A stretch of 57,900 nt of DNA from Nitrospira sp. (GCA_016788465.1 JAEURV010000066.1:1-57900), one strand, 5' to 3'; numbered from the stretch's first letter, positions 30,918 to 49,235 are shown. Notes: generated by a model from the letters alone, not told the origin. A program made the numbers and translations.

Positions 30918-33839
30918 TTAGGCCGCTGCTTGTGTCAGCGGAGGATAGCCATTGCGATAGGGTTCCAGGACCTGGACCAGTCGCTCGACTTCAATCTCAA
31001 GTTGCGCATACACAGGGGGGGCGTCGTGAAGTGCGTGAAGGCGGCCGACGGCCTCAAGGCGACTGGCAATCAGGCCAACCTCTGAGGCGCATAGATTTCC
31101 TGCGGTTCCTTTAAATGTGTGGGCTGACCGCTCGACTGCGGACGAGTTCCCATCGGCCAGGGCCGTTCGAATATCGGCCAACATCGTCTGATAGCGATCC
31201 AAGAAGAGACGGATGAGTTGTCCAAACAACTCGTTGTCATTCCCAATGTTTTGATACATCTGTGCGTGATCAAAAATGCCTTGAGCAGGATCCGGGTGTC
31301 GAGGGGCAGCGTGTGCTTGGTCCGCTCGGATCGTCTGAGGTGGAGCTGGCGTCCAACGTGCCAGTGCGGCTCGTAGTTCATCGAGCTTAATGGGTTTCGA
31401 AAGGTAGTCGTCCATTCCCGCGGCCAAGCAGCGTTCTCGGTCACCCTGCATGGCATTGGCTGTGACTGCGATGATCGGAATATGAGGGGACGCATCAAGT
31501 TGTGAGTCGCGCGTATCAGTCGGGCTGTCTGTCTTGCCAGATCCTGAGGCCGAAATCTGATCCTCGGCGTGTGATACGGTGGAGGACGCTTCCCGTTCCC
31601 GAATGGTTCGGGTCGTCTCAAAGCCGTCCATGAGCGGCATCTGACAATCCATTAGGATGGCGGCATATCGTCCTTTTGTGAGTGCCACCAAGGCTTCTTG
31701 CCCATTATCGACGACATCCGGTCGATATCCCAGTTTCTCGACCATTCGAACCGCAAGTTTCTGGTTTACGATATTGTCTTCTACCACTAACACACGCTGG
31801 CGTTGAATATTCTCTGCGACTGTATGTCTCGTAACCAGTTGTGGGACGATGGAACCGATGGGCTCGGTTTTCCGTTCTTGATCGTCCTTGATCCCCAGAA
31901 CGGTTCGGAGGCATCCCTTCAACTCATCGTGACGAACCGGTTTAGGGAGATACCCCATGGCGCCGGAGGATCGGGCCTGTTCCGCGTGTCCTCGCTGAAG
32001 AATGGACGTCATGACGACAAGACGAGTGTGAGCCCCATCAGGATGGCTGTTGAGCTCGCGTGCGAGCTGCAAGCCGTCCTTCCCGGGCATAATGACGTCC
32101 AGAATGGCGAGATCGTAAGGTGTCCCTTTTCGGTTCGCCTCAGTGATACGCTGCCATGCCGAATCGGCATCTTCGGCCAGGTCGTCCACCATGCCCCATC
32201 CGGAAACCAGATGGTGAAGAATCATCCGATTCGATTCATTGTCGTCAACAATCAGGACCCGTTTCCCAGCAAGTTCACCGGAGGGAAGAATGGCACGGAG
32301 GGAACCGATCTGTTTCTGGAAGCGTGCCGTACACCAGAAGGTGCTTCCCTGACCTTCGGTGCTGCGCACTCCCATCCGACCACCCATCAGTTCCACCAGC
32401 TGTTTTGAAATCGACAGACCCAGGCCGGTCCCTCCATATTTTCTTGTGGTCGAGCTGTCAGCTTGAACGAAGGGGCGAAAGAGCTTGTCGATGGTCGTGG
32501 GACTCATGCCGATTCCACTGTCCGTGACTTCAAATCGGATCTCCACGGCATCCGTGGAGTCGTGCTCGAGATAGGCTTGGAGGGTTACCTCTCCTTTGTC
32601 CGTAAACTTCACGGCATTGGCTACAAGATTGGTAAGAACTTGACGCAGACGACCGGGGTCACCTTTGAGGCCGGTCGGAACGGCCGCGTGTACCAACCCT
32701 ATGAGTTCGAGCCCTTTGGTCTCGGCTCGTTCGGCAAACTGTGCCAAGACCTGTTCCACTGTGGTTCTCAGATCGAAGTCCAGAGTCTCCAACTCCAGCT
32801 TCCCGGCTTCGATTTTACTGCATTCGAGTACATCATTGATCAACTGTAAGAGGGCTTCACCACACTGACGTATGGTTTCAGCGTACGAGTGTTGTTCAGG
32901 CGTCAGCGGAGTCTCCATCAGGAGGCTCGTCATGCCGATCACCCCGTTCATGGGCGTACGCAATTCATGACTGACCGTCGCCAAGAATGCCGATTTTACG
33001 CGCGCGGACTCTGTCGCTTTCTCAAGCGCCTGATCGAGGCGTTGGTTGCTCTCGTGCAATTGAATGGCTGTCTGGCGGAGCGCTTGTTGCGTCTCGTAGA
33101 CGGTTGTCATATCCGTTGCGTACCCTCGGACGATTCCGTGGGAAAGGATCGGACAAAAGGTCCATGAAAAACTAGCTTTGGGGAGCAGGACGTCTTCCCC
33201 GTATAAAACCTGGCCGGTGGAAAGACTGCGTTGGATGATCGTCATGAGCTGAGGGGGGGCTACGCTCGGAAATCCCTCGAGACTATAGCCGAAGCGAGAG
33301 AGCAACGAAATCATGGCAGGATTCGCATACAGGAGGCTGCCATGTCTGTCCAACTCAATCATGGGAGAAGGACTTTCATGCGCAATGGCGGCGAGGCGGT
33401 CCCGCTCGTGCTTGACTTCCATTTCCTGCGACAAGTCGCGGATATAGACCATCAGCACAGTGACATCGCCGAATAGGTTGGGAGTACATGTCCATTCCAC
33501 GGGGATGATGGCGCTCGTCCGTTTCAGATGGAGTTGTTGCCTTGAGGCGATGGGATGACCGCTTCGCAATACTCTGGTCAGTTGGGCCGTGATCAAGTCT
33601 GCGTCTGTTGCCGTGAGCATCGACCAGAAGGCTGGAAAGGATTGTTTCATGGGGAGCCGTGATCGTGGCCCCAGGAGTCGGCGTCCTTCCCGGTTGACGG
33701 CAAGGATGGTGAGCTTGTGGTGAAGGACGATCGCACCAATCGGAAGATCTTCGAGTAGGTCGGCGAGGTTGGAAACATGCGACGCATCGACTGCCGTTCG
33801 ACGACGGGATGCTCTATGCGTTCTCTGAGATCGGGACAT
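30918..33839 (-). CDS. Hybrid histidine kinase: PAS-PAS-HisKA-HATPase-REC-REC-HPt
   Basis: A 973-residue soluble sensor kinase. Order: PAS-like domain about 20-130 (DLPIGAIVLHHKLTILAVNR), second PAS about 145-255, HisKA with phospho-His near residue 291 (FLATVSHELRTPMNGVIGM), HATPase with N box (LVANAVKFTDKGEV) and G box (GTGLGLSISKQLVELMGG), receiver 1 at about 535-655 (VLIVDDNESN, ILDVIMPGKDG), receiver 2 at about 680-830 (VLVVEDNIVNQ, MDCQMPLMDGFE) and HPt at about 865-950 with AHTFKGTAGN. No membrane segment is evident, so it senses a cytoplasmic signal. The gene overlaps the upstream HD-GYP-type gene by one base (TAATG) and probably shares its sigma28-like promoter. Which pathway it controls is unknown. 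Confidence 0.93.
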   Translation of the reverse strand: MSRSQRTHRASRRRTAVDASHVSNLADLLEDLPIGAIVLHHKLTILAVNREGRRLLGPRSRLPMKQSFPAFWSMLTATDADLITAQLTRVLRSGHPIASRQQLHLKRTSAIIPVEWTCTPNLFGDVTVLMVYIRDLSQEMEVKHERDRLAAIAHESPSPMIELDRHGSLLYANPAMISLLSRFGYSLEGFPSVAPPQLMTIIQRSLSTGQVLYGEDVLLPKASFSWTFCPILSHGIVRGYATDMTTVYETQQALRQTAIQLHESNQRLDQALEKATESARVKSAFLATVSHELRTPMNGVIGMTSLLMETPLTPEQHSYAETIRQCGEALLQLINDVLECSKIEAGKLELETLDFDLRTTVEQVLAQFAERAETKGLELIGLVHAAVPTGLKGDPGRLRQVLTNLVANAVKFTDKGEVTLQAYLEHDSTDAVEIRFEVTDSGIGMSPTTIDKLFRPFVQADSSTTRKYGGTGLGLSISKQLVELMGGRMGVRSTEGQGSTFWCTARFQKQIGSLRAILPSGELAGKRVLIVDDNESNRMILHHLVSGWGMVDDLAEDADSAWQRITEANRKGTPYDLAILDVIMPGKDGLQLARELNSHPDGAHTRLVVMTSILQRGHAEQARSSGAMGYLPKPVRHDELKGCLRTVLGIKDDQERKTEPIGSIVPQLVTRHTVAENIQRQRVLVVEDNIVNQKLAVRMVEKLGYRPDVVDNGQEALVALTKGRYAAILMDCQMPLMDGFETTRTIREREASSTVSHAEDQISASGSGKTDSPTDTRDSQLDASPHIPIIAVTANAMQGDRERCLAAGMDDYLSKPIKLDELRAALARWTPAPPQTIRADQAHAAPRHPDPAQGIFDHAQMYQNIGNDNELFGQLIRLFLDRYQTMLADIRTALADGNSSAVERSAHTFKGTAGNLCASEVGLIASRLEAVGRLHALHDAPPVYAQLEIEVERLVQVLEPYRNGYPPLTQAAA

Positions 33840-35110
33840 TACGCGGCTCGCAAGTCAGAATTGTCTAGGTGAATACCGATGTTGACTCGTTCACGCGTCG
33901 GGTCGAGCACACGGAGGACCGAACGCACCGTATGGTCGGCAGATGGGGAGGCGAGATCTACCTCTATGGGAGTGGGATAGGAGCCTCCCTGTGGGTCGGT
34001 CGTAATCTTGACGAGTGGTTTAAGTCGTTGCTGAGGGTTGACTCCAACGACGACCGCTTGTTCTCCGGTGTTAAGCTTGACCAAACTCCCCACAGGATAG
34101 ACGCCGATGCTTCGAATCATTAGTTCCACCAGAGACTTCTCGAATTCACCTCGCTCTCCGGCCAAGAATAGTTGTCGAACGGCGTCATGCGGCAACATGG
34201 AGGGGCGTGTACCGTGTCGGCTCACCATGCCGTCATAGAAGTCGACGATGCCGACGATTTGGGCCAGTGGCAAGATGTCGTTGCCGCGAAGGGCGGCAGG
34301 AAATCCGCCTCCATTGCCCCGCTCATGATGCTCCTTGACGATGCGCAGGACTTCCTCAGGCATGCCGGGTTGTTCAGCGAGCACTGCGACGCCAAGTTTG
34401 CAATGTTGTTCCAGAAGGGTCTTATCTTGTCCGGTGCACTCATCTCGTTTGCGTACTAAATTTCGTGGCAATCGTACATATCCGGTATCGTGCAGCAACG
34501 CGCCCATGCCCACTAGTTCCTGCGTCGGTTGATCCAGTTCACTCTCAAGGGCCAGGATGAGCGACAGGATGCAGGTATCCAATGCATGCGTCGTCAGAGA
34601 CCGGTCGAACTGCTTGATTTTTTGAATGGCAAGTTGCGTGGCCATCCCGGCGTGATTGCCGAGCATGTGGTCGAGGACAGTCGAGACAATCGCCTTCGTC
34701 GCTTCGGGTGACGGAGGAACCCCGCGTTCAAGATCGCTGAAAATTCGTTCCACAGCTTCCTGAGCTTGGGCATAGATGACCGAGGGAGGCTGATCGGCAT
34801 CCCGCGCCGTTGCTCCACTGGCTGCGGTTGTACTTGCAGCGGAGGCTAATTCCGGAGGCGATGCTTCAACCTGTGTGTTGTGCTCCATACTTTCCGGACT
34901 GGTCTGCGAGGGGGACGCTGGAAGGTCAAGTCCCTTGCTGGTGTCGATCGTCACGATCCTGATCCCATGGCGTTTCATGAGTTGAATGGTGTCCAGGTCT
35001 TTGATGAGAAATTTATGAGAAAGAAAGGGAGTGCGGTACCAAGGGACATCCATTTCAATGAGGTACATACCGAGGATCAGTTGGTCGATCGAAATACGTT
35101 TGGTGGCCAT
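33839..35110 (-). CDS. HD-GYP-type phosphodiesterase-like protein (HD-GFP variant)
   Basis: A 423-residue protein with a DUF3391-type N-terminal domain (KRISIDQLILGMYLIEMDVP) and a C-terminal HD domain at about 200-380. Metal ligands appear kept: H in HALDTCILSL, the HD pair in ALLHDTGYVRLP, H in QHCKLGVAVL, the HHE of KEHHERGNGGGFP, and D in IVDFYDG. The signature GYP reads GFP, and the HDxGK motif reads HDTGY. HD-GYP enzymes break down c-di-GMP to pGpG or GMP; activity of this variant is uncertain. ATG 35110 (CGGAG four bases upstream) is chosen because the sigma28-like promoter lies beyond it; the frame extends to 35194. Confidence 0.85.
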   Translation of the reverse strand: MATKRISIDQLILGMYLIEMDVPWYRTPFLSHKFLIKDLDTIQLMKRHGIRIVTIDTSKGLDLPASPSQTSPESMEHNTQVEASPPELASAASTTAASGATARDADQPPSVIYAQAQEAVERIFSDLERGVPPSPEATKAIVSTVLDHMLGNHAGMATQLAIQKIKQFDRSLTTHALDTCILSLILALESELDQPTQELVGMGALLHDTGYVRLPRNLVRKRDECTGQDKTLLEQHCKLGVAVLAEQPGMPEEVLRIVKEHHERGNGGGFPAALRGNDILPLAQIVGIVDFYDGMVSRHGTRPSMLPHDAVRQLFLAGERGEFEKSLVELMIRSIGVYPVGSLVKLNTGEQAVVVGVNPQQRLKPLVKITTDPQGGSYPTPIEVDLASPSADHTVRSVLRVLDPTRERVNIGIHLDNSDLRAA

Positions 35111-35175
35111 AGATCTCCGGGCTCCAGATCTAAACGTCGTCGAAGGGGCGTTCATGCTACAGCGGTTCGCGTGCG

Positions 35176-35203
35176 TTATCGGCGGAAGAAACATCGAACT
35201 TGA
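35176..35203 (-). promoter_or_regulatory. Sigma28-type promoter for the HD-GYP/hybrid kinase operon
   Basis: On the minus strand: TCAAGTTC (35203-35196), 12-base spacer, GCCGATAA (35183-35176). The -10 box is a perfect consensus. It lies upstream of the ATG at 35110 and inside the longer reading frame, which supports the shorter start. Confidence 0.8.
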
Positions 35204-35274
35204 TCAGTGTGTGCAGGACAGTGCGTGTTGTAATTCATTCTGAATCAATACGTTCCGTCTTGCATCCTTGCTGC

Positions 35275-35302
35275 TCAAGAATAGTCTCTGACGGGCCGAT
35301 AG
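35275..35302 (+). promoter_or_regulatory. Sigma28-type promoter for the PilZ protein
   Basis: TCAAGAAT (35275-35282), 12-base spacer, GCCGATAG (35295-35302), 49 bases before the PilZ gene start. It faces away from the minus-strand sigma28-like site at 35176-35203, making a divergent pair. Confidence 0.75.
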
Positions 35303-35351
35303 AGCTCATCAGAGATTGTTTTTGGCGACTGCTCAATGAGGACAAGACGCG

Positions 35352-36077
35352 ATGAATGACGTAATCGAAGCTTCTCCCTCTCCAGCAACGTTCTTATCAG
35401 TGGGATTGGCTATCAAGCTTTCTCTGACGCTCGATGGACAGAAGGTGATGTACGGCTCAACGCTGTTGGGCTGGAAAGATCATGCTTGGCTTGTCTGTGA
35501 ATGGCCTCTGCCTCTGAGTCATGACCAGCGTGTTGAGAGTGGAACTCCGTGTACCGTCAGTTACCTTCATGACGGTAAACTCGTCGGATATCGTAGTGAA
35601 ATTCGCGATCTGATTACCTCGCCCGTACCGTTATTGTTCGTGGCCTATCCCAAGACGGTAGAGGAAATGCATTTGCGCAAACATCTCCGAGCATCCGCCA
35701 ACGAACCGATTTTGTTGATGCAAGCCGACATGACAAGCGCATCCACCTCTTTGTCACCAGCGAGCGGTTATTTTGGCGGTTTACTGAAGGATCTCAGCGG
35801 AGGAGGATGCAGTGTGACTTTGGTTCGAAGGCCGGCATGGTTGCGCTCAGGAGCGACTGTTCGTTTGGAGTTCGAGCTGCCTGGACTGGGACATATTACC
35901 AATCTGACGGGTGTCGTGAAGAACCTTGAGGTATGCCATGGAAGCGAAACGATCGGGATCGAGTTTCGCTTCGACGAAATGGAATACATCGAGTATCGAG
36001 GATGGGGAGGATCTGTCCGGCAGGCGATCGAGCAGTGTGTCTTCCAGAGAGCCAGCACCCCTTTTCAAACTTCCTAG
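35352..36077 (+). CDS. YcgR-like PilZ c-di-GMP effector
   Basis: A 241-residue protein with an N-terminal YcgR-N-like beta domain (about 10-110) and a C-terminal PilZ domain (about 110-225). The c-di-GMP binding motifs are visible: RKHLRASAN (RxxxR type, about residue 113-121) and DLSGGGCSV (D/NxSxxG, about 150-158). YcgR-type proteins bind the stator or switch and slow the motor when c-di-GMP is high. The divergent neighbour is an HD-GYP-type c-di-GMP phosphodiesterase, so the two may form one local module. GAGGA lies nine bases before the ATG. Confidence 0.87.
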   Translation: MNDVIEASPSPATFLSVGLAIKLSLTLDGQKVMYGSTLLGWKDHAWLVCEWPLPLSHDQRVESGTPCTVSYLHDGKLVGYRSEIRDLITSPVPLLFVAYPKTVEEMHLRKHLRASANEPILLMQADMTSASTSLSPASGYFGGLLKDLSGGGCSVTLVRRPAWLRSGATVRLEFELPGLGHITNLTGVVKNLEVCHGSETIGIEFRFDEMEYIEYRGWGGSVRQAIEQCVFQRASTPFQTS

Positions 36078-36526: not shown

Positions 36527-39500
36527 ATGCAGCGATTAAGCGTCAACATCATCTATGGGAATCATGGCCATGCGATTCACACGGAAGATACTCTGGAATA
36601 TGTGCGAGAAGGCCTGGAGAGCACCGGCTTGAGCGTACGATATTCTCGCGGGGAGTACTTAACGGACGGGGTGAACATTGTCATGGAATGTCACCACCGA
36701 GGTCAGAATCTGTATGAGCAGATTTCAACGGCAAGGCAGCGGTATCCGCAGTCTCGGCTATACGTGATTGTTACAGAGATGCTGACTCCGGATGGGTTTA
36801 ATTCGGCAAATATGAAGATGGTGGAATCCCATGAATCAACAACTCCCTACCATGATCGTGCCTACTGGAATGAGAGGACCAAGGCCTTTATGGGTCTTGT
36901 TCCCGTGGTTGACGGGCTATTCCTAATTGGACTGGAGCCTATTGAGGGCTGTTTGCCCCTGGGGTATGAGAAAGAGGTGGGACTCTATTTTCAGTTGGGG
37001 AAACCGGTGCATCTGATTCCCTTGTGTGCTCCACCGCAGCTTTCTACGGTTTCGGGAGGTGAACGTCAGTATGGCGAGCAAGATATCGACGTATTGTTTA
37101 CCGGATCTGTCACGCCGTACCGAAGAAAGATACTCGACACGTTGCGGGCAAAGGACATGCGGGTCGTGACTCTAGAAGCCCATACAGCCGCTTATTTAAG
37201 AAACAACTATGTACGCCGAAGCAAGTTATCTGTCGGACTGAAATTGTCGGATGAGACGCAAATCTTATCCTTGCAACGTGCCTATTTCCATTTGGTGAAT
37301 AGAGTGCCGCATGTGTTTGAGCGTACTCCGATACGGTCTCCGTTCGACCCATTCCTGAATTTTGCCGACAGCGGGGAGGCCTTTGTCAAAGCGTGCGAGG
37401 CCGTATTGACGGGAGAGCAGCCATGTCCTACCCGGTATTTTTCAGAATTTTACCGTGCTACGAGCGGAAAGTATCAGGATACGTTTGAACGTCTTCGGAC
37501 AATGCTGGAGCAAGAGGCCGGATGGCAGCCGACCAGACAGGTTTCTCGGTCTCATGCGGGAGGGAATGGTGAGAGGCACGGACACGGCGTTACGGAAAGG
37601 CACGCCATGAGTGATTGCCGTAAGATGTACGGCAGGCTTGAGGAAGAGTATTACCAGTATTGTCGTGAAGCCAAGCAGCCCTACTTCGGCAAGATCATGT
37701 GGGCATCTCAGGGATTGCCTCTTCGACATGCAATCATGCAGGAAGTCGTGCGTCTCGAAGCAGTGCGTGCCGGGAGTAATCCTCTGCATGTTCTGGAGGT
37801 AGGGGCCTGGGCGGGTGGATCGGCCATCACCTGGGCAGAGGCGATTTCTAAGTTCCATGGAGGCAATGGACAAGTCCTCTGTGTCGATCCCTGGAAGCCC
37901 TACTTCGATATGGCCAAACGGCCGGATACGCGACTTTATCGGGAGATGGCCGATGCATTGTCGAGCGACACGATCTATGATTTATTCCTCCATAATATCC
38001 AGGCGTCCGGGCATGAACAGCGCGTCATTCCACTCCGTGGACAGAGTACAACCGTTCTGCAGACCTTACCGCATGGACATTTTGATTTAGCCTATATCGA
38101 TGGAGATCACAGCTATTCTGCCGTGCTGGCTGATCTGACCGCCGCTTGTGAGCTGGTGAAGGACGGAGGCATCCTGTGCGGTGATGACTTGGAGCTGCAG
38201 CTGGATGAAATTGATGTGGCATACGCCAAGACCCAGATTGAGTCGGACTATATCGAAGATCCCCGATCTCGCAAGCACTATCACCCGGGAGTGACGTTGG
38301 CGGTCGGTGAACTCTTTGGCCGGGTATCCGTCGCGGAAGGCTTCTGGGCGATACGGCGTCAGGGAGCGCAATGGGTGAATGTTGATTTTTCTCCCATTCA
38401 CTGCACGGAAAAGGATATCCCGAGACATCTTATCTCGAATAATCCCGCCGATGATCATGCGTTTCGCGAGTGGTTGAAGCGTAGACGTCAACCTGAGTCG
38501 GTTTCGTCGGTGCCTGTTTCCCATCAAGAAGTACCCTCACCACGCGTAACAGCCCATTCAGCCAAAGGTCCCAAGATCTTACTCCTCCAATTGGAGTTTC
38601 CTAATTGGCAGCAGGGTCGTGCATGGTCGTATGCCGCGTCTTATGGAGTGGCAGATGGCTTGCGTGCGAATGGTGCGCAATGCACAACCATTCCTTTGAT
38701 TGCGAACAGTGCGAGCCATTCGGACGCCTGGCTGGCTCATGCACGGAGCCTCGTGGCAGGACAACGATTCGACCAGGTCTGGGTCTGGCTGGTACATACG
38801 CCCTTTGATCAGCAGGTTTTGGATTGGATCAGCGGTTTGGCCCCTGTCCGAGTCGGGGTGGTGATGGAATCGCTGGTCTATGATCAGACGGACTATGACT
38901 GGGCCCCTCATCTGCGCGAGCGTCAAGGGCGGGTCGAACGGGAGTTACGGAGTTGCACTCATGCCCTATTGCTTGATGAGTGTGATGCTCAACGCCTTAT
39001 CGGGCGTGTGCCGGTTGAAGCCTTATGGTGGCCTCCCATGGTGCCTGCACGGTTCATTAAGGCTTCCACCCTGCCGCCTACGCACGATGTCGGAGTGTTT
39101 CACGGCACTCCCTATGGAACACGGCAACAATGGCTCACGCATCCTATCCTTAAGGAACATCTCCGCTTTGTTCAATCGGGGCAGCCGACCACGCAGTTCC
39201 AACGCATGTATGATCAATTACAGGCCGTGATGCTGCGTCGGATGAGCTCCGCACTACCGGTCTCGCCTGTTCAGATGGCTGAGTATGTGGAGACATTGCA
39301 CAAGATCAGGGAAGGGGAATTCGGCGAATGGATAGGCCGACTGCCACAATGGGCGGCAATAGTGAATTTGCCGAGTCTCGCGAAAGGTTTTGGTGGGCGT
39401 GTGTTCGAAGGCATGGCGGCCGGACGTCCCGTGGTGTCCTATCCCATACCGAATCATCCCTTGAACAATGCCTTGTTTGTGGATGGCGAGGAAATTGTAT

Positions 39501-42500
39501 TCTACGACGCTGCATCTACGGAGTCTCTGAGAGAGGCGCTTGATCGTGTTCTACGCGACCAGTCTTTGGCAACGAAGCTTGCTCGTAACGCGGAAAACAA
39601 GCTTCGGGCCTTCCACACCAGCGAGTACCGCCTGAAGCAAACACTCGCTTGGATCGAATCCGGGCAGAAACCAGATTATGGTGTCGCTGTTTCGCAAAGT
39701 CCCAAACAATCTCGACCGATTGTGGCATCGGAGACGGGTCGGGGAATCCAGGAGCGTTCAGTGGAAGATAAGGACGCAGATCGTTTTTACGTCAATCTCT
39801 TTGTCAACGCACCGGAGTGGTCTACACCTCATCCGAATGCGGATGAGGCCGCACGCTGGACCAAGATTGCCTCGTTCTTGGAGTGCATCCTTCGACGGGT
39901 CCGTCAGAAGAATCCACAGAAGGAATTGCGTATTTTGGACGTCGGGTGTGGGCGTGGCTGGCTTACGAAGTTGGCATCTGTATATGGCGTCTGCGAAGGT
40001 GTCGAGCCCGTGGCGGAGGTTGTGGCCCATGCACGGAAGATGTTTCCGTACCTGAGATTTGAATCAGGGACCGCCGACCAAGTTCTCTCACGTGCGGACT
40101 TCGCTCCGTACGATGTCGTCTTGACTTCCGAAGTTCTCGAACATGTTCCTCACGGGCAGAAAGATCTCTTCCTTGCACAGCTGGCTGCTCTTCTGACAGC
40201 TGAGGGGTACCTCATTCTGACGACCCCTCGCGGAGAAATGTGGGATCAGTGGATGACCATTGCGCCGCCGAATCAGCCGGTTGAGGACTGGGTGACGGAG
40301 GAGGACTTACGTCAGTTGTTCCGCCGCCAAGGATTTACTGAGATTGGTTTGGAGCGAGTCCACGTGGAAGTACCGGGGCTTCGGTACGTGCCTGCACCGA
40401 CTCCAGCGGAGCTCGGATCACGGAAGTTGCTGCCTATCTACCAGGTGTGGGCGTGCCAGCGTGTCGGGCCGGTCCGACCTGCGACTTTCACACGTCGGCC
40501 CAAGGTTTCAGTCATCGTACCGACCTACAATCGACCGGACCGTCTGAAAGTGGCCCTGCAGAGTATCCTCCGACAGACATTTCAGGACTTTGAGATCATG
40601 GTCGTCAATGACGGAGGTCTCGATGTCGCGTCGACGGTGGCGACGCTCAACGACGGGCGCATCGTCTATATTCAGCACGATCGAAATCGAGGCCTTGCAG
40701 CTGCTCGGAATACGGGATTGGCTGCGGCAACAGGCATGTACATCGCCTACCTCGACGACGACGATCGGTATTTGCCGGACCACTTAGAAACACTGGTGTC
40801 GGCCTTGGATGAGGGGGCGCATAAGGTCGTTTATAGCGACGCCTGGCGAGTCAGCGAGCGGCGGGAACAGGATCGCTATATTGAAGTGGGCCGAGACGTG
40901 CCGTATTCGTACGACTTCAATCCGGCCGACCTGCTTGTATCAAATTATTTTCCGGTGCTCTGTGTGATGCACCATCGAGCATGCGTTGAACAGGTTGGGC
41001 GGTTTGATGAATCACTCTTTGCTCATGAAGACTGGGATCTGTGGATCCGCATGGCGACAATATCCCCCTTTAAGCATGTGAAACGCACGACAGCCGAGTT
41101 CAGCTGGCGAACAGACGGGTCTTCGATGACAAGCGCGACGCAAGAAACGTATTGGCGTACGACGGAGATTATCTATCACAAGTATCGGCCTTACGCCGAA
41201 CGAATGAAGGGAGTACGCCAAGCACAGGAGAAACGGTTGGAGGATCTCCGCCGCGCCAGGAGTAGGCGCGACTATGTCTGTTCCATCGTCATGCCAGTGT
41301 ATAACCGAATGGAACTCACGAAAGATTGCCTCACAGCTTTGGCAGGAATGAACGATCAGCCGGAGTACGAACTGATCATTGTGGATAATGGGTCTACTGA
41401 CGGTACAGCCGATTTTCTTCGGCAACTCAGCGGTGACGTCCAGATCATCCGCAATGAAGAGAACCGCGGGTTTGCCAAAGCTTGCAATCAAGGGGCAAAG
41501 GTCGCTCGAGGCCGATATCTGGTGTTCTTGAATAACAACACAATTCCGCAAACGGGTTGGCTGGAAGCCTTGGTCCGAGAGGTGGAGCAAGACCGGGATA
41601 TTGCCGTGGTAGGCAGCAAGCTCCTCTACGGCGACGGGACCATACAGCATGCAGGTCTGGTGTTTCCCCGTACTGGCGGAATTCCATACCACTTGTACCA
41701 GCATCTCCCCGGCGATTGTCAGGCCGTCAGTGGGCGTCGTGAATTTCAGTGCGTGACAGCCGCCTGCATGCTGGTCCGGCGTGAATCCTTTGAGGAAGTC
41801 GGAGGGTTCGATGAAGCCTACCGCAATGGGTTTGAGGATGTGGATTTGTGCCTGAGGATTCGAGAGCAGGGCCACCGCATCGTCTATCAACCGAGAAGCG
41901 TCGTCATCCATCTTGAGGAGCCAACGTTCAGAAGGAAGGCGCATGACGAAGAGAATACGCGCCTGTTTTTGAGCCGCTGGGAGAAACACTGGTGGCTGGT
42001 GGATGAAGATCTCTACTACCACGCCGATGGCTACAAAATGGTCGGCGGTGAAGCGACCGCCAACGATGCGGGGCATGTGCGGATGATCGAGAACATCAAA
42101 GACCGCGCTGCATGGGCACATGTGGCGGCCGCGCAATCAGCCGCGCAAAAAAGAGACTGGGGCGGGATCAAGCGGGAATTGAGCTTGGCGCAGGACTGGC
42201 CGAACGACCCCTCTGTGCTGGACTGGGGCGCGATGGTAGCTGAGCAGCTGGAAGAGCCGGTCTATCGGGCACAGTTTCTCGCCAGGCATGTGGGTTTGGT
42301 CGATGATCCAGTCCGTCGACTCGAATTGATCCGCATGTTGTTGGAACAGAAGAACTTGGCGGGAGCCGAGGAGCACCTACGTGCCATACTGGATGCGTCC
42401 CCTGACCATGCCGGGGGGCTTCTGCTCAAAGGTATTCTGTGTATGCAACATGAGCAGTTCGGAGAAGCGGAAGCTGCATTCAGTGCCGCGCTTTGCCAAG

Positions 42501-42892
42501 GGGCCGAACGCAGAAAATGTCTGATGGGCATGGGGATGGCCGCAATGGGAAGAGCCTACACGCAGGGTGCCTGGGAACGGTTTCTTGAGGTGTTGGCTGA
42601 TTATCCAGATGATACCGAAGCGATTCATTGGTTGCTCCGTGCGGGGACGGCACAAAATCGTTGGCATGAGTTAGCTGAGCATTTGCACATCTACGTAACG
42701 AGGAATCCGGGAGATCTTGCTTCCCGCTTTGCGTATGCCAGCGTTTTGTTGCGGGGTGAACAGATTCATGCAGCTAGGCGCGAATACGATGCGCTATCGC
42801 GGGTTGCTCCCACCTATGACGGGTTGGAGCAACTCGGCCGGGCGATTTCCGGGAGGGAAGCAGTGCTCGCTCTGGAGCCTGCTTCGTCTTAG
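36527..42892 (+). CDS. Giant multi-domain glycosyltransferase/methyltransferase
   Basis: A 2121-residue protein with no signal peptide. Order, by eye: GT-B-like domain about 1-350 (FTGSVTPYRRKILDTLRAK); SAM-methyltransferase-like domain about 380-610 (LEVGAWAGGSAITWAEAI; LAYIDGDHSYSAVLADL); second GT-B domain about 680-1060 (FGGRVFEGMAAGRPVVSYPI); second methyltransferase about 1080-1310 (ILDVGCGRGWLTKLAS; TSEVLEHVPHGQKDLF); GT2 domain about 1324-1570 (VSVIVPTYNRPDRLKVALQS; AYLDDDDRYLPDHLE); second GT2 about 1580-1810 (SIVMPVYNRMELTKDCLTAL; FLNNNTIPQTGWLE); TPR-like helices about 1860-2121. In the second GT2 the usual NND motif reads NNN, so its metal site may be altered. Position before the flagellin gene suggests flagellin glycan synthesis, which is inference. 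AAAGG lies eight bases before the chosen ATG. Confidence 0.85.
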   Translation: MQRLSVNIIYGNHGHAIHTEDTLEYVREGLESTGLSVRYSRGEYLTDGVNIVMECHHRGQNLYEQISTARQRYPQSRLYVIVTEMLTPDGFNSANMKMVESHESTTPYHDRAYWNERTKAFMGLVPVVDGLFLIGLEPIEGCLPLGYEKEVGLYFQLGKPVHLIPLCAPPQLSTVSGGERQYGEQDIDVLFTGSVTPYRRKILDTLRAKDMRVVTLEAHTAAYLRNNYVRRSKLSVGLKLSDETQILSLQRAYFHLVNRVPHVFERTPIRSPFDPFLNFADSGEAFVKACEAVLTGEQPCPTRYFSEFYRATSGKYQDTFERLRTMLEQEAGWQPTRQVSRSHAGGNGERHGHGVTERHAMSDCRKMYGRLEEEYYQYCREAKQPYFGKIMWASQGLPLRHAIMQEVVRLEAVRAGSNPLHVLEVGAWAGGSAITWAEAISKFHGGNGQVLCVDPWKPYFDMAKRPDTRLYREMADALSSDTIYDLFLHNIQASGHEQRVIPLRGQSTTVLQTLPHGHFDLAYIDGDHSYSAVLADLTAACELVKDGGILCGDDLELQLDEIDVAYAKTQIESDYIEDPRSRKHYHPGVTLAVGELFGRVSVAEGFWAIRRQGAQWVNVDFSPIHCTEKDIPRHLISNNPADDHAFREWLKRRRQPESVSSVPVSHQEVPSPRVTAHSAKGPKILLLQLEFPNWQQGRAWSYAASYGVADGLRANGAQCTTIPLIANSASHSDAWLAHARSLVAGQRFDQVWVWLVHTPFDQQVLDWISGLAPVRVGVVMESLVYDQTDYDWAPHLRERQGRVERELRSCTHALLLDECDAQRLIGRVPVEALWWPPMVPARFIKASTLPPTHDVGVFHGTPYGTRQQWLTHPILKEHLRFVQSGQPTTQFQRMYDQLQAVMLRRMSSALPVSPVQMAEYVETLHKIREGEFGEWIGRLPQWAAIVNLPSLAKGFGGRVFEGMAAGRPVVSYPIPNHPLNNALFVDGEEIVFYDAASTESLREALDRVLRDQSLATKLARNAENKLRAFHTSEYRLKQTLAWIESGQKPDYGVAVSQSPKQSRPIVASETGRGIQERSVEDKDADRFYVNLFVNAPEWSTPHPNADEAARWTKIASFLECILRRVRQKNPQKELRILDVGCGRGWLTKLASVYGVCEGVEPVAEVVAHARKMFPYLRFESGTADQVLSRADFAPYDVVLTSEVLEHVPHGQKDLFLAQLAALLTAEGYLILTTPRGEMWDQWMTIAPPNQPVEDWVTEEDLRQLFRRQGFTEIGLERVHVEVPGLRYVPAPTPAELGSRKLLPIYQVWACQRVGPVRPATFTRRPKVSVIVPTYNRPDRLKVALQSILRQTFQDFEIMVVNDGGLDVASTVATLNDGRIVYIQHDRNRGLAAARNTGLAAATGMYIAYLDDDDRYLPDHLETLVSALDEGAHKVVYSDAWRVSERREQDRYIEVGRDVPYSYDFNPADLLVSNYFPVLCVMHHRACVEQVGRFDESLFAHEDWDLWIRMATISPFKHVKRTTAEFSWRTDGSSMTSATQETYWRTTEIIYHKYRPYAERMKGVRQAQEKRLEDLRRARSRRDYVCSIVMPVYNRMELTKDCLTALAGMNDQPEYELIIVDNGSTDGTADFLRQLSGDVQIIRNEENRGFAKACNQGAKVARGRYLVFLNNNTIPQTGWLEALVREVEQDRDIAVVGSKLLYGDGTIQHAGLVFPRTGGIPYHLYQHLPGDCQAVSGRREFQCVTAACMLVRRESFEEVGGFDEAYRNGFEDVDLCLRIREQGHRIVYQPRSVVIHLEEPTFRRKAHDEENTRLFLSRWEKHWWLVDEDLYYHADGYKMVGGEATANDAGHVRMIENIKDRAAWAHVAAAQSAAQKRDWGGIKRELSLAQDWPNDPSVLDWGAMVAEQLEEPVYRAQFLARHVGLVDDPVRRLELIRMLLEQKNLAGAEEHLRAILDASPDHAGGLLLKGILCMQHEQFGEAEAAFSAALCQGAERRKCLMGMGMAAMGRAYTQGAWERFLEVLADYPDDTEAIHWLLRAGTAQNRWHELAEHLHIYVTRNPGDLASRFAYASVLLRGEQIHAARREYDALSRVAPTYDGLEQLGRAISGREAVLALEPASS

Positions 42893-42896
42893 AGAG

Positions 42897-44081
42897 ATGG
42901 CCAAACGCGCACTTCTGATCCAATTGGCCAGACTTGGTGATCTTGTACAAACGGTTCCGGTCATTACGGCGCTTAAGGAAACGCATGAAGACTGGATCCT
43001 TGACCTGTTGTGTCCGGCACATCTGGAAGGAATTGGACTAATCTTGCCGGGAATTGGAGCAGTGGTACCGTGGGATGGGGCTGCATGGAATCAACGGGCG
43101 CGGGTCGTGGAGAACGATCTACTGCCCGACCACGTGGTCGAGGCCGATGCCGCGCTTCGTACGATCGTGGACGAGCCCTATGAGTGCGCATTTGTGCTCA
43201 ACCAACATCCCCGTGCGATCCTGGCTGGGGCGCTCCTGGCACGAAAGAGTCTGGGAGCAGTGAGCGGTGGGCCGGTTGATCATAGATTATCACCCTGGGC
43301 AACCTACGTGAGAGCTGTGGCCAACGACAGAAGAGAGAACCGCATTCATCTAGCCGATGCATTTTGCGGGATGTGCGGTGTTCCTCCGCCCAAAGACGTG
43401 GTGCAGATACAGATGCCCTCCGTTCGACTTCCGCAAGAGCTTGATCCGATCGGAGAGTCTTCCGGCCCATGGATCGGAGTCTTAGTGGGAGCAGCTGCCT
43501 CGGAGCGAGTGGTTCCGGTCACGGCTTGGGCAGAATTCATTGCAGGTTGCCTGGATGCTCTCCATGGGAGTCGTGTCGTATTGATCGGAAGTCGACAGGA
43601 ACAAGAACGAGCCGGCTGGATTCTGACGTCACTTCCTTCTTCCCTCTTAGGGCGAGTCTGGGACACGACCGGTCGACTTTCGTTGACGGAATTGGCACAG
43701 GCACTTACTCGTTGCCAGGTTGTCGTTGGATCCGACACCGGCCCGCTGCATCTGGCAGTAGCCCTGGGGACCAAGGTGATCGGCTGGTATTTTGCCAGGG
43801 CGCGGGTTCATGAAACGGGACCCTACGGCCGGAGCCATTGGGTATGGCAAGCAGAAGGAGTAGGGGGGGAGACTGGAGAAGCAATTACGCCGCACTGTTG
43901 GCCGATCGAGGAGACCATCGGCCTCCTGTCCAATTCCCAGGTGGTCGCAGCTCAAGATTGGTCGCTCTGGAGCAGTCATCGGGATCGGTGGGGCGCATAT
44001 TATGTTCAGGCGGGACATGAACCGGTTGCCCCGCTTCAACGGGAACAGGTTTGGAACGAGTTGCATTCTACGGCGGTGTAA
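42897..44081 (+). CDS. Glycosyltransferase family 9 (heptosyltransferase-like)
   Basis: A 394-residue GT9-like protein. The N-terminal pattern ALLIQLARLGDLVQTVPVIT (residues 5-24) is the classic start of ADP-heptose:LPS heptosyltransferases, and SDTGPLHLAVALGTKVIGWY near residue 280-300 is the nucleotide-sugar binding signature. ATG 42897 follows the previous stop by four bases and makes the conserved segment N-terminal; the longer frame from 42717 lies within the giant gene. As part of a flagellar locus it may add a sugar to a flagellin glycan rather than to LPS. Confidence 0.87.
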   Translation: MAKRALLIQLARLGDLVQTVPVITALKETHEDWILDLLCPAHLEGIGLILPGIGAVVPWDGAAWNQRARVVENDLLPDHVVEADAALRTIVDEPYECAFVLNQHPRAILAGALLARKSLGAVSGGPVDHRLSPWATYVRAVANDRRENRIHLADAFCGMCGVPPPKDVVQIQMPSVRLPQELDPIGESSGPWIGVLVGAAASERVVPVTAWAEFIAGCLDALHGSRVVLIGSRQEQERAGWILTSLPSSLLGRVWDTTGRLSLTELAQALTRCQVVVGSDTGPLHLAVALGTKVIGWYFARARVHETGPYGRSHWVWQAEGVGGETGEAITPHCWPIEETIGLLSNSQVVAAQDWSLWSSHRDRWGAYYVQAGHEPVAPLQREQVWNELHSTAV

Positions 44082-44092
44082 GGGGGAATTCA

Positions 44093-45910
44093 GTGGAGTA
44101 CCTGAACGCAAACTTAGAGCGTCTTCGTCAGACCGCTCCCGATCTTGCCGGGGCTGTGCGAGACAGCCCCGGTGGTGTGCTCACCGTGGTTCCTTCACGC
44201 GAGGGTTCTCCTTCGGCGACGTATGGAGGGCAATGGATCCATAGTGCCTATGACCCCAAGAAAGAGGCCAGGTCCTGGGTAGAACAACAACTCAAGGAAT
44301 GGAAATCGGACGAGGCGGCCGTGGTTCTTGGGGTAGGTCTCCTCCATCACGTGGAGGCCCTCGCCATTTCGCTGCCGCCCGATGCAGGAATGGTCGTCGT
44401 AGTACCAGATATGTCTGTATTGAAAGATGCAATGGGTGCAAGGCCTTTCGGATCCTGGGTCAACAGGATTCAGTGGGTGACCGGTACAGTCGAGGATATG
44501 GCCGCGCAGCTGGCTGCACAACCATCTCCTCTACGATTCTTGACGTATGGGGCAGCGGCACGACTCCATGCTGACGCGCATCAGCAACTACAGAAGAGGC
44601 TAGGCCAAATCATGGCTGGCAAGGCGGGCGGCCAACTGCATGTGGCGGTGGTTGGTCCGATCTACGGCGGATCGCTCCCGATTGCTCGCCATGTTGTATC
44701 CGCGTTGAACGAACTGGGTCACCGAGTGACGTGGCTCGATCATCATCTCCATCAGGGTAGCTATGACGCCCTCGGATCCTTTCGTGAAGAGCGTCATCGA
44801 CTGACGCTGCAGAGTCGATTTGCCGACGTCCTGAGCCTGAGCACCATGGCGCATCTGGCGGAGGATCCACCGGATCTGGTTCTGGCTCTTGCCCAAGCGC
44901 CGCTGACACTGGCGGTGTTGCAGCACTTGCGGAAGAAGAAATTTCTGACGGCGATGTGGTTTGTCGAAAACTACAGACATCTCACATACTGGCGTCAATT
45001 GGCGGCTGGGTACGATTACTGGTTTGTGATTCAGCAAGGGGATTGTCCTGATGCGTTGAAACGGGCTGGAGCGACTCACGTTCATTATCTACCTATGGCG
45101 GCAGATCCCAACGTACATCGTCCAGTGACCCTAACCACGGCTGAGCAACAGGAATATGGAGCCGACGTCTCCTTTGTCGGGGCTGGCTATGCCAACCGGA
45201 GGAAACTGCTGCCTCAGTGGTTGTCGAAGGAATGGACGTTGAAGCTGTGGGGGAATGAATGGGACGGTGCCCTGGATCTCTTGAGCGTACTCCAACGCAA
45301 CGGGGCTCGTATCGATATGGATACCTGCATCAAGGTGTTCAACGCTACGGCCGTGAATCTGAATGTGCATTCGTGCTCCGGCATGGGCCTGGATCCTCAA
45401 CCGGATTTCGTTAATCCTCGCACCTTTGAGCTGGCCGCCTGCGGCGCATTTCAGTTGGTGGACGAGAGGACACTGCTCCCCGATCTCTTTACGCCGGAGG
45501 AAGTCGTTCGCTTTCGGAAGCCTGAAGAGGTTCCGCAGTTGATTCGGACGTGGGTCAAGGATGGCACTGGACGGCGTGACTATGCCGACGCGTCTCGCCG
45601 ACGGGTCTTACGTGACCATACCTATCGTCATCGTGTGCAGGAGCTTCTTGCCGCGGTTGGTCTACATCAGCCGGATCGCATAGGCTCAATCTTGCGGGGG
45701 GATCGGTCGACGATAGGACTCACGGAACGGGCCACTGCCTTGCCGGAGCTGCTCCCCTTGCTCAACCGGTTTCCGACGGGGCAACGTATCGAGTTGAAAG
45801 ACCTTGCAGCTGATATTCGCGCACGAGCTCCCGGGCGCCAACTGGCACGAGAGGAGTTGCTTGTCCTGATGCTCGACAGTTATCGGGTTGAAACAAAAGA
45901 TCTTGTATGA
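44093..45910 (+). CDS. Maf-like N-terminal region joined to CgeB-type glycosyltransferase
   Basis: A 605-residue protein. The first 190 residues include YDPKKEARSWVEQQLKEWKS followed by a VVLGVGLLHHVEALA segment, a pattern seen in the N-terminal part of Maf (motility accessory factor) flagellin glycosylation proteins. Residues ~200-560 are CgeB/GT1-like (LHVAVVGPIYGGSLPIARHV, ADVSFVGAGYANRRKLLPQW, NPRTFELAACGAFQLVDERT). The join of the two is inferred by eye. GTG 44093 is chosen: AGGGGG lies upstream, 11 bases after the preceding stop. A longer frame from 44051 overlaps the previous gene. Confidence 0.72.
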   Translation: MEYLNANLERLRQTAPDLAGAVRDSPGGVLTVVPSREGSPSATYGGQWIHSAYDPKKEARSWVEQQLKEWKSDEAAVVLGVGLLHHVEALAISLPPDAGMVVVVPDMSVLKDAMGARPFGSWVNRIQWVTGTVEDMAAQLAAQPSPLRFLTYGAAARLHADAHQQLQKRLGQIMAGKAGGQLHVAVVGPIYGGSLPIARHVVSALNELGHRVTWLDHHLHQGSYDALGSFREERHRLTLQSRFADVLSLSTMAHLAEDPPDLVLALAQAPLTLAVLQHLRKKKFLTAMWFVENYRHLTYWRQLAAGYDYWFVIQQGDCPDALKRAGATHVHYLPMAADPNVHRPVTLTTAEQQEYGADVSFVGAGYANRRKLLPQWLSKEWTLKLWGNEWDGALDLLSVLQRNGARIDMDTCIKVFNATAVNLNVHSCSGMGLDPQPDFVNPRTFELAACGAFQLVDERTLLPDLFTPEEVVRFRKPEEVPQLIRTWVKDGTGRRDYADASRRRVLRDHTYRHRVQELLAAVGLHQPDRIGSILRGDRSTIGLTERATALPELLPLLNRFPTGQRIELKDLAADIRARAPGRQLAREELLVLMLDSYRVETKDLV

Positions 45911-45995: not shown

Positions 45996-47669
45996 ATGAA
46001 GCAAGTCTTAATTTTAAACATTACCAGGATGGGCGATCTCGTCCAGATGGGTACATTGTTGGAACGTCTCCATGAGGAGTGGCCTGGAGTTGCCGTGGAC
46101 CTGGTTGTGGATCGCCGGTTTGCGCCGGTTGCGTCGTTACTGAGGGGTTTGCGCGAGGTCGTCGCCTTGGATTTTCAGGTCCTGATCGAGGAGAGCCGTG
46201 CCCTCGTGAAGGATGTGGTTGCGCTGTATCACGAGACGGCGGCCTGGGCGAAGCCGTTGGCGGAACGGCGGTATGATCGCGTGATTAATCTCACGTTTAA
46301 TAAGCCGAGCGCGCTCCTGGCTGGATTCATCGGCGCACCCGATATTCGAGGGGTACAAAGCGCATGGGATGGGGGGCTCGTGATCGAGAATCCTTGGATG
46401 GCGTATTTTTCGGATTTTCACCAATTCCGACAATTGAATCGGTTCAATCTCGTCGATATCTACGCGCTTGGCGGCAGTCGCCCAGGGGCATTTTCGCCGC
46501 TTCGACTCTTCCTTGCTCGGGAGGACCACATGTGGGCGAAGGAAACCCTCACCGGGTCGACTCAGTGGATTGCCGTGCAGGCCGGAGCCAGTGACAGCAT
46601 GAAAGCCTGGCGGCCTCACCTTTTTGGCCAGACGTTGGCTCAGGTGGCCAAACGATGGCGCGGTGGAATTGTCTTCATCGGCAGCCGGGAAGAGGAAGCC
46701 ACGATCGCGGAAGTCATGCAGGTCTATCGAGAGGCAGGGGGGAAGAACGCGGTTAAGAATATGGCGGGTCGCACAACGTTAAGTCAGCTGGCCGGGCTAC
46801 TGGCGGAATGCCAAGTGCTGCTGACCAACGATACCGGACCTATGCATATTGGCGTGGCGGTGGGCACTTCGGTGATCGATCTGTCGGTGGGACATGTCTC
46901 GTTCCAGGAGACCGGCCCCTATGGGCCTGGCCATTGGGTGGTTCAGCCGGAATTGGACTGTGCTCCTTGTGGGTTCGAACAAGTCTGTGCCCACCATGCC
47001 TGCAAGGACCGTCTCTCCCCAGATTTTGTGGCTGATCTCATGTGTCATGTGTTGAAGACTGGACCATGTCCCACCAAGGCTGTCGGGGGACGCCTCTACG
47101 AGTCCGGAGTGGATGAGGATGGACTCGGTTCCTTTAACTTAAGAATCGGGATGGAGGCTCCCACCACGGCATGGTATGCGGCGTTTTGGCGCCGCTACTG
47201 GTATGAAACACATACTGGATTACCGAGCCGTCTTCCACTCCTGGAAGCGAAGCCTCCCGATGCCCCAGCGGTCACGGCACAGCTGCGGACACTGATGCCG
47301 CTTCTGGAGGTATCCTGCCGACGAGCTGATCAGATTGCACAGGTGGCTCGTAGGGCATCGGCCAACATTCCGGAGTTGAAACGGCTTCAGGGCGAGCAGC
47401 GAGTTGATCAGGAGCGGCTGCTGCGTATTGGCCTAACCACGGAGGCCATCGCTCCTCTCACGGCAGCGTTCGGCCGTGAGATGCGAAATGACAATGTCGT
47501 CGGTCTGGCTAAACTTGCACAGCATCAGGCTCATGCCTATCACACATGGCTGAGACGTTTGAGAGATTTTGAGCGGTATCTGGTTGACAGATCCCCCAGG
47601 GATCGGGGTGTCACGCCTGGGCATAGAGGAAATCTGATCACAGGTGGGCGGGAGCGGCAAGTGGCATAA
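45996..47669 (+). CDS. Second GT9 (heptosyltransferase-like) glycosyltransferase
   Basis: A 557-residue protein. The N-terminus VLILNITRMGDLVQMGTLLE is the GT9 start pattern, and the segment LLTNDTGPMHIGVAVGTSVI near residue 270-290 is the nucleotide-sugar signature. A Cys-rich stretch near residue 325-345 (DCAPCGFEQVCAHHACKD) is typical of some heptosyltransferases. The C-terminal ~200 residues are a helical extension with charged and hydrophobic heptads, absent from plain GT9 proteins. ATG 45996 is chosen over an in-frame TTG at 45990. Confidence 0.85.
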   Translation: MKQVLILNITRMGDLVQMGTLLERLHEEWPGVAVDLVVDRRFAPVASLLRGLREVVALDFQVLIEESRALVKDVVALYHETAAWAKPLAERRYDRVINLTFNKPSALLAGFIGAPDIRGVQSAWDGGLVIENPWMAYFSDFHQFRQLNRFNLVDIYALGGSRPGAFSPLRLFLAREDHMWAKETLTGSTQWIAVQAGASDSMKAWRPHLFGQTLAQVAKRWRGGIVFIGSREEEATIAEVMQVYREAGGKNAVKNMAGRTTLSQLAGLLAECQVLLTNDTGPMHIGVAVGTSVIDLSVGHVSFQETGPYGPGHWVVQPELDCAPCGFEQVCAHHACKDRLSPDFVADLMCHVLKTGPCPTKAVGGRLYESGVDEDGLGSFNLRIGMEAPTTAWYAAFWRRYWYETHTGLPSRLPLLEAKPPDAPAVTAQLRTLMPLLEVSCRRADQIAQVARRASANIPELKRLQGEQRVDQERLLRIGLTTEAIAPLTAAFGREMRNDNVVGLAKLAQHQAHAYHTWLRRLRDFERYLVDRSPRDRGVTPGHRGNLITGGRERQVA

Positions 47670-47687: not shown

Positions 47688-48215
47688 ATGAATGTAAAAT
47701 TGGACAACGAGCAGTGGCAAGCCATCAGTACCGCAACGCTCGGTGACATCCTCGCAGAATTGAGCGAGCGGGCCGATGCGCGGTCTCGAATCGTCACGAA
47801 GATCGTATTGGATCATCGTCGGATTACGGATCGAGACATCGATCCACATTTACTTCAACAACCGGCTACGAGTTACCGTGAGTTAGTCGCGACTTCTGAG
47901 ACGCAGCTGGAGATGATTGAATCGGCTCGTGGTGCGATCGAGCGCTACTGTAGGTTGGTCGTGGCCGAAGGCACCTCGCTGGCCAATCAGTTTCGGATGG
48001 GGGTACAGGATTTGTCGTCGTTCGATGCTTGGCTCGGGAAGGTGGCGGATGCAGTCGAGGTCATTGAGAACGGCCGGAAACAGGTAGGAACGCCATCTCA
48101 GGGGCAAGCCATCGCAGGGTGGATCGAACAGCTCCTGGCTGCGAGGCATATTCATGATACCGTGAGGATGGCAGATCTACTGGAATATGAGATCCTTCCG
48201 CGGATAGCGGCTTGA
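47688..48215 (+). CDS. Conserved-looking protein of unknown function upstream of flagellin
   Basis: A 175-residue soluble, mostly helical protein (MNVKLDNEQWQAISTATLGD at the start), with no signal peptide, membrane segment or motif I recognise. It has a strong ribosome binding site (GAGGGGAGATG) and follows the second GT9 gene by 18 bases, so it is likely co-transcribed with the glycosylation block. Its charged, heptad-like composition with few Cys residues resembles secretion chaperones or adaptor proteins, but nothing proves a function. Confidence 0.72.
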   Translation: MNVKLDNEQWQAISTATLGDILAELSERADARSRIVTKIVLDHRRITDRDIDPHLLQQPATSYRELVATSETQLEMIESARGAIERYCRLVVAEGTSLANQFRMGVQDLSSFDAWLGKVADAVEVIENGRKQVGTPSQGQAIAGWIEQLLAARHIHDTVRMADLLEYEILPRIAA

Positions 48216-48407: not shown

Positions 48408-49235
48408 ATGGCACTTATCGTTAACAATAACCCCGCATCCATTGCGGCACAGCGCAACCTGTCGGTCAATACCCTTGGCCTGAACCGGTCGGTTGAGCGG
48501 CTGTCATCTGGTCTCCGGATCACACGAGCAGCTGATGACGCTGCTGGCCTCGGATTGTCGGAGTCCTTGCGGGCGCAGATTCGCAGTATCAATCAAGCGA
48601 CTCGAAACGCGTCGGACGGTATCAGCTTGACGCAGATCGCCGACGGTGCGGCAGCCACCATCGGGTCGTTGCTCGCTCGGCTTCGCGAACTGTCCTCCCA
48701 GTCCGCCAGCGGCACGGTGGGGAATACCGAGCGGTCCTACATCGATCAGGAGTTTATCGCGCTGCGGTCAGAAATCGACCGTATTGCTCAGGTGACCGAA
48801 TTCAACGGCCAGGCACTGACGAGTGGTTCTACAATCAGCTTCTCAATCGCCATTGGGTTCCGCAGTGGTTCAGGGAATACGCTGAGCCTGGATCTCAACG
48901 ACATCACCACCAGCTCGTTGGGGCTGAGCTCGGTGAACGTGTCCACGGCGACAGCTGCGACAAACGCATTAGCCAGTATCGACAGTGCGATCAGTGCCGT
49001 TGCAAGTGCACGAGCCGAATACGGGTCAATTCAGAACCGATTCGAGGCGACCATCGCCAATCTGCAGGTGACGAGTGAGAACCTCACGGCTGCAGAATCG
49101 CGTATCCGTGATGCGGATATTGCGCTTGAGACCTCTGTCTTCACCAAGAACCAGATCTTGGTGCAGGCCGGTATCGCGACCTTGGCCCAGGCCAACACGC
49201 TACCGCAACAAGCACTGGCGTTACTCAGAGGATAA
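48408..49235 (+). CDS. fliC: Flagellin (filament protein)
   Basis: A 275-residue flagellin, short relative to the ~500 residues of enterobacterial FliC. The conserved D0/D1 N-terminus (MALIVNNNPASIAAQRNLSV, later LSSGLRITRAADDAAGL) and C-terminus (ESRIRDADIALETSVFTKNQ, ILVQAGIATLAQANTLPQQA) are complete, and the surface domain between is only about 50 residues (Ser/Thr-rich). Such Ser/Thr-rich regions are typical glycosylation sites. It is the only flagellin in the window. A strong AAGGAGG precedes the ATG. It has its own sigma28-like promoter. Confidence 0.98.
   Translation: MALIVNNNPASIAAQRNLSVNTLGLNRSVERLSSGLRITRAADDAAGLGLSESLRAQIRSINQATRNASDGISLTQIADGAAATIGSLLARLRELSSQSASGTVGNTERSYIDQEFIALRSEIDRIAQVTEFNGQALTSGSTISFSIAIGFRSGSGNTLSLDLNDITTSSLGLSSVNVSTATAATNALASIDSAISAVASARAEYGSIQNRFEATIANLQVTSENLTAAESRIRDADIALETSVFTKNQILVQAGIATLAQANTLPQQALALLRG

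Follow-up and report, generated by a model that had tools for sequence, protein, structure and literature searches.

Fusions of glycosyltransferases (GT) with methyltransferases (MT) acting on bacterial surface glycans, and a GT that docks flagellin through a tetratricopeptide repeat (TPR) domain, are already known. WsaE of Geobacillus stearothermophilus is a trifunctional protein with one MT and two GT domains, acting on a surface-layer (S-layer) glycan (PMC2943079). The type B flagellin GT2 of C. difficile (CDR20291_0242) is a GT-MT fusion that attaches rhamnoses, which it is proposed to methylate as well (PMC5207246). The TPR domain of FlmG from Caulobacter crescentus binds flagellin (PMC7591256), and enterobacterial flagellin glycosylation islands carry GT41-methyltransferase proteins (PMC4875605). 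Here a gene from a draft genome of Nitrospira sp. (GCA_016788465.1, 380 contigs) was compared with these systems. The window, the whole stretch of 57,900 nt that was analysed (JAEURV010000066.1:1-57900), contains at 36527-42892 one uninterrupted open reading frame (ORF) of 2121 codons, present as a single copy in this genome and called the giant gene below. Nitrospira is a dominant group of nitrite oxidisers.

Judged from comparisons between genomes, flagellin glycosylation is the most likely function of the giant gene. The strongest argument is that a known flagellin glycosylation system substitutes for it in the same slot of another genome (G038). Gene presence in relatives, which the first-pass annotation of this DNA had proposed to compare with flagellin surface sequence, was scored in 79 genus genomes, with one genome that gave only a GT2-like match (G035) counted as lacking the giant gene. 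Of the 67 genomes with flagellin, 66 encode the GT2-TPR half of the protein, as do 2 of the 12 without; one genome has flagellin alone, two have the giant gene alone and ten lack both. The Fisher P of 4.9e-10 overstates the significance because the genomes are phylogenetically non-independent. G044 and G108, the two assemblies that have the giant gene alone, are fragmented. The sole flagellin-only genome, G038, encodes NeuB, a UDP-GlcNAc 2-epimerase, a Polysacc_synt_2 protein and an 881-residue Maf-TPR protein, followed by a flagellin of 640 residues. This island (L174:63-11894) is flanked as in the giant-gene loci, by FlgK, FlgL, a histidine kinase, an HD-GYP protein and a PilZ protein on one side and by FliD and FliS on the other. 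A BNR-repeat protein is also encoded in it. In the remaining 78 genomes, the host genome (G000) among them, no Maf (PF01973) scored above cut-off.

We put at roughly 0.78 the probability that the product of the giant gene is a multi-enzyme protein of the cytoplasm that O-glycosylates flagellin, and that its locus represents a Nitrospira-type system working without Maf. The protein has no clear membrane segment. Its C-terminal TPR module is a putative docking domain that, following the precedent of FlmG, would bind flagellin. The adjacent GT2, universal in the family, would form a core with the GT9 and DUF3880 transferases encoded downstream, which are probably co-transcribed, and this core would start or extend an O-glycan on Ser/Thr residues of the flagellin surface loop; the choice of the module that makes the link to protein is a guess. 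The N-terminal modules (MT24, GT-B, MT23 and GT2, with module A as an unproven addition) would attach further sugars and methylate them and, being swapped by recombination, would give each species an outer glycan of its own while the flagellin beneath hardly varies.

It is quite improbable, in our judgement, that the locus instead makes a surface polysaccharide, such as a side chain of lipopolysaccharide (LPS) or capsule, and is merely co-located or co-inherited with flagellar genes, its GT9 proteins being LPS heptosyltransferases. The GT9 neighbours do resemble those enzymes, and the tandem GT2 modules resemble the chondroitin and heparosan polymerases. However, the GT9 scores fall far under the equivalog cut-offs, the giant gene lies within the flagellar gene cluster, and it is lost together with flagellin and replaced one for one in its slot by the Maf/nonulosonate (NulO) genes.

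By Pfam, the giant protein contains in order Methyltransf_24 (residues 423-554, whole-protein E 4e-18), Glyco_trans_1_2 (947-1040, 1e-13; PF13524 at 51.7 bits against a curated cut-off of 25), Methyltransf_23 (1123-1271, 2e-17), Glycos_transf_2 (1328-1452), a second GT2 (around 1585-1801; 2e-65 for the protein) and TPR_19 (1938-1988, 1e-5), designated modules B to F and T (Table 1). Seven parts had been listed in the first-pass annotation, together with a proposal to run profile searches and structure prediction on each segment. Six of them (MT24, GT-B, MT23, GT2, GT2 and TPR) were recovered by Pfam, structure or both, with catalytic folds in modules B, D, E and F. The leading GT-B (residues 1-340) remained unproven, with no Pfam match, a poor model and no catalytic fold demonstrated. 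Foldseek matched module B to MycF, SpnH and Rv0187, of which MycF and SpnH methylate sugars, and profile searches matched module C to the GT-B chains of Tll1590 and TarM. The AlphaFold2 model of residues 1075-2121 (mean predicted local distance difference test, pLDDT, 84) showed an MT, two GT-A folds and a TPR superhelix in turn, and Foldseek placed K4CP and heparosan synthase, two polymerases with tandem GT2 domains, at the top. In VIA-align, module D aligned with S-adenosylmethionine (SAM) methyltransferases (Z about 21) and module E with AvpGT, WrtF and SpsA (Z 24-27). Module F aligned with polypeptide GalNAc-transferases (Z about 22), a match in the common GT-A fold that does not by itself make it a protein-directed transferase.

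Modules B and D both have a profile score above cut-off and a SAM-binding motif, as class I SAM methyltransferases do. Module E has DDDD at 1410-1413 and HEDWD at 1500-1504; these motifs and the GxGxG of module D are retained in nearly all homologues that have the modules, and the GDD of module B in the few homologues available. The metal motif of module F reads NNN (1669-1671) in the window and NND in most of the 41 homologues. Either the transferase is weakened in this species or a base is wrong. The protein could on this ground be taken for a degenerate, partly dead fusion, a remnant in the window genome with several modules inactive and only some still adding sugars, and the recent-looking fusion of module A, seen nowhere else, and a possible internal start point the same way. 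We consider this unlikely, as 2121 codons are open, the motifs of B, D and E are intact and the entire locus is retained.

Module A gave no Pfam match even at an E value of 10, and its AlphaFold2 model had a pLDDT below 50 over most of its length; no fold was demonstrated by a Protein Data Bank profile search, by Foldseek, or by hhalign with module C and the DUF3880-GT family as targets. A distant relative from Azospirillum matches PF13524 below cut-off (E 0.012), and the Azospirillum relatives align with the C-terminal half of the module only. The G+C content of module A is 50.7%, against 55% for the window. It is a separate ORF in three genomes (G029, G051 and G053) and also present in a fourth (G017), one of these four non-fused matches containing an internal TGA; apart from these four and the window genome, no genome of the genus holds it, nor do the other genera sampled from the phylum. 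It is fused in the window genome only. The fusion looks recent, and internal initiation may operate alongside it; in principle it could stem from an error in the draft assembly. A possible internal translation start is Met361, preceded by AAAGG, at which the G056 protein, which lacks A, begins in the alignment. Two polypeptides, A (about 360 residues) and B to T (1761 residues from Met361), with the fused ORF a read-through or the product of a sequence error in the linker, are therefore a real possibility, which we rate at somewhat less than even odds. The separate copies of A, one with its TGA, the features at Met361 and the draft state of the genome favour this, while the continuous, open reading frame speaks against it. 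It is compatible with a role in flagellin glycosylation and bears only on the form of the product.

Two side observations concern module A. In G029 (L056:1-6557), two radical-SAM-like proteins and a dehydrogenase-like pair, recognised by eye in the translations, are encoded 5' of the giant gene, beside the stand-alone A; this set may perhaps make an unusual sugar or acyl group. G017 has two giant genes on separate contigs (L072 and L037, the latter G017:C21), one beside flagellin and one near module A.

Forty-one loci were compared, the window and 40 relatives of the order, a few of them cut by contig ends. Almost all named relatives of the GT2-TPR half come from Nitrospira or other Nitrospirota, including N. 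moscoviensis, whose family member has 1620 residues. Modules F and T are present in all loci, D in 30, C in 25, B in two and fused A in the window only; elsewhere in the family there are FkbM, CDP-glycerol transferase-like, GT4 or extra GT2 modules. In another genus of the order (g9), sequence search recognised the TPR end alone. A contig labelled Deltaproteobacteria (L164) encodes a GT2-TPR end of 46% identity, by transfer or through misclassification of the assembly.

Pairwise identities were correlated with those of the DUF3880-GT; no P value was attached, as the pairs are not independent. Spearman coefficients were 0.80 and 0.82 for the two GT9 proteins (GT9a and GT9b), 0.75 for the 175-residue protein that precedes flagellin and 0.62 for flagellin, against 0.11, 0.39, 0.21, 0.23 and 0.51 for modules C, D, E, F and T. 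The DUF3880-GT proteins of loci L051 and L066 are 94% identical, yet the module sets of the two loci differ. Between G024 and the window, modules D, E and F are 75%, 72% and 67% identical and the DUF3880-GT 55%. Because module identities track their neighbours poorly and near-identical neighbourhoods differ in modules, the N-terminal modules are concluded to be swapped between species. An assembly line for a flagellin glycan had been suggested in the first-pass annotation. The flagellin link is strongly supported (co-occurrence, synteny and replacement by Maf) and most modules have the folds and motifs of a multi-enzyme protein, but the architecture is not fixed: since the fused first module is peculiar to the window genome, the 2121-residue form is one variant of a variable family. 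With more doubt than conviction, we suggest a combinatorial system within one gene, in which a fixed C-terminal GT2-TPR docking end would carry an exchangeable N-terminal array of GT and MT modules; as in a modular synthase, the glycan would be determined by which modules are present and in what order, and species would diversify by module swaps within the ORF, not by gain and loss of genes.

The giant gene had been described as next to the only flagellin gene. The flagellin gene is indeed single, the other PF00669 match in the data being FlgL, and the two genes share a locus of conserved order, but the giant gene is upstream at a distance of about 5.5 kb that holds four genes, three of them GT-like. 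The order in the loci is giant gene, GT9, DUF3880-GT, GT9, 175-residue protein and flagellin. The 175-residue protein is encoded directly upstream of flagellin in 39 of the 41 loci; it has no Pfam or NCBIfam match, a tblastn search of the Maf-type locus of G038 was also negative, and it may serve the glycosylation system as an accessory protein or chaperone. The giant gene is embedded in a flagellar gene cluster and GTs adjoin flagellin, as in a flagellin glycosylation island. Between FlgL and the giant gene (30918-36077) are encoded a histidine kinase with receiver and Hpt domains, an HD-GYP-type protein and a YcgR-like PilZ protein, a set that suggests control of the flagellum by cyclic di-GMP and is retained in G038.

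A sigma54-like promoter had also been noted before the giant gene. The candidate carries two mismatches, and a scan of the window alone was rejected as evidence, with 9 sites of this type found against 10 expected by chance. It is credible because it recurs across the family: sites with two mismatches occur upstream in 17 of the 41 loci, against 1.2 expected from shuffles (maximum 5). In 15 of the 41 loci, TGGCAY-N5-TTG, a pattern picked after these counts, precedes the homologous ORF (in one case the site falls just within the stop-to-stop frame). That number is thus partly post hoc; coding sequence gave 2 matches in 209 kb. RpoN is encoded in the genome. A sigma28-type element precedes flagellin here and in most relatives; its pattern was widened (TMAAGTYY) after the site was seen, which makes the count of zero mismatches in the window partly post hoc, but not the recurrence in relatives. 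In Aeromonas, modification of flagellin by Maf precedes export (PMC4065374). By analogy, an early modifying enzyme and a late flagellin would fit modification before export.

Table 1. Features of the giant gene and its surroundings, in window coordinates.
Feature	Coordinates	Strand	Evidence
sigma54-like promoter candidate TGGCATGCAACTTGTT, 112 bp 5' of start codon	36415..36430	+	2 mismatches to TGGCACG-N4-TTGCW
Module A, residues 1-340, putative GT-B (unproven)	36527..37546	+	homologue comparison
In-frame ATG (Met361), AAAGG 6 nt upstream, start of module B	37607..37609	+	sequence
Module B, Methyltransf_24 / TylF-MycF-like sugar O-methyltransferase	37634..38446	+	Pfam, Foldseek, GDD motif
Module C, GT-B glycosyltransferase (Glyco_trans_1_2)	38549..39706	+	Pfam, profile matches
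Module D, class I SAM methyltransferase (Methyltransf_23), GxGxG motif	39779..40426	+	Pfam, motif, fold
Module E, GT2 (GT-A)	40469..41161	+	Pfam above curated cut-off (PF00535), GT-A fold, motifs
Module F, GT2 (GT-A), universal in family	41234..42016	+	Pfam (PF00535), GT-A fold
Asn1671 (codon AAC) replacing family Asp of GT2 metal motif	41537..41539	+	homologue comparison
Module T, C-terminal TPR superhelix, most widely retained part	42029..42889	+	Pfam, model
GT9 heptosyltransferase-like gene, start 4 bp past giant gene's stop	42897..44081	+	Pfam, synteny
DUF3880 + Glyco_trans_1_2 (GT-B) gene, kept in 41/41 loci	44051..45910	+	Pfam, synteny
Second GT9-like gene	45996..47669	+	Pfam, synteny
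175-residue protein without assigned family, conserved just 5' of flagellin	47688..48215	+	synteny
Flagellin sigma28 (FliA)-type promoter TCAAGTCC-N11-GCCGATAA	48283..48309	+	0 mismatches
Flagellin, 275 residues, Ser/Thr-rich surface loop 139-180, S/T conserved	48408..49235	+	Pfam, homologue comparison

Several points weigh against a role in flagellin O-glycosylation. The flagellin glycan itself is inferred, not observed, and synteny and co-occurrence would also fit the modification of another flagellar or surface component. Module F of the window genome lacks the acidic metal-binding motif, and module A lacks a demonstrated fold. Genes for sugar-nucleotide biosynthesis, usual though not universal in described flagellin glycosylation islands, were seen neither between the giant gene and flagellin nor elsewhere in the window in the genes that were scanned (a subset of the ORFs).

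If this role is correct, module content would offer testable predictions of glycan structure for dozens of species with one flagellin type, for which the natural replacement by Maf serves as an internal control. The high exchange rate would suggest selection on the flagellum surface, speculatively by flagellum-binding phages or grazers. A literature search, made in a limited library and hence no proof of novelty, found no paper on Nitrospira flagellin glycosylation, and in the same literature no flagellin glycosylation protein with modules swapped inside one ORF and a fixed C-terminus. One paper that treats Nitrospira flagella does not mention glycosyl terms (PMC5767232).

Among the known systems, WsaE is likewise a soluble single protein with MT and GT domains for one glycan, but has three modules to the seven of the giant protein, serves a lipid-carrier S-layer glycan and has no reported TPR and no flagellin link. 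The C. difficile GT2 shares the position adjoining flagellin and the fusion of GT to MT; it differs in its fewer modules, in having no reported TPR and in extending a sugar set by a separate GT1. FlmG also joins a TPR to a GT in one protein, with a single GT-B, an N-terminal TPR and pseudaminic acid as substrate. The enterobacterial islands resemble the Nitrospira loci in being variable and flagellin-adjacent, with MT-bearing GTs and signs of horizontal transfer, but the units that vary in them are whole genes, and they also contain genes for sugar synthesis, whereas Nitrospira varies by modules within one ORF of constant C-terminus. K4 chondroitin polymerase and heparosan synthase (PDB 2z87 and 8vh8) share the tandem GT-A in one chain; they are capsule polysaccharide polymerases without MT or TPR modules. 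In G038 the Maf/nonulosonate system fills this very slot upstream of flagellin, but its enzymes are unrelated. Unusual here are the seven modules per chain, the fixed GT2-TPR end with an exchangeable front, and the genus-wide independence from Maf.

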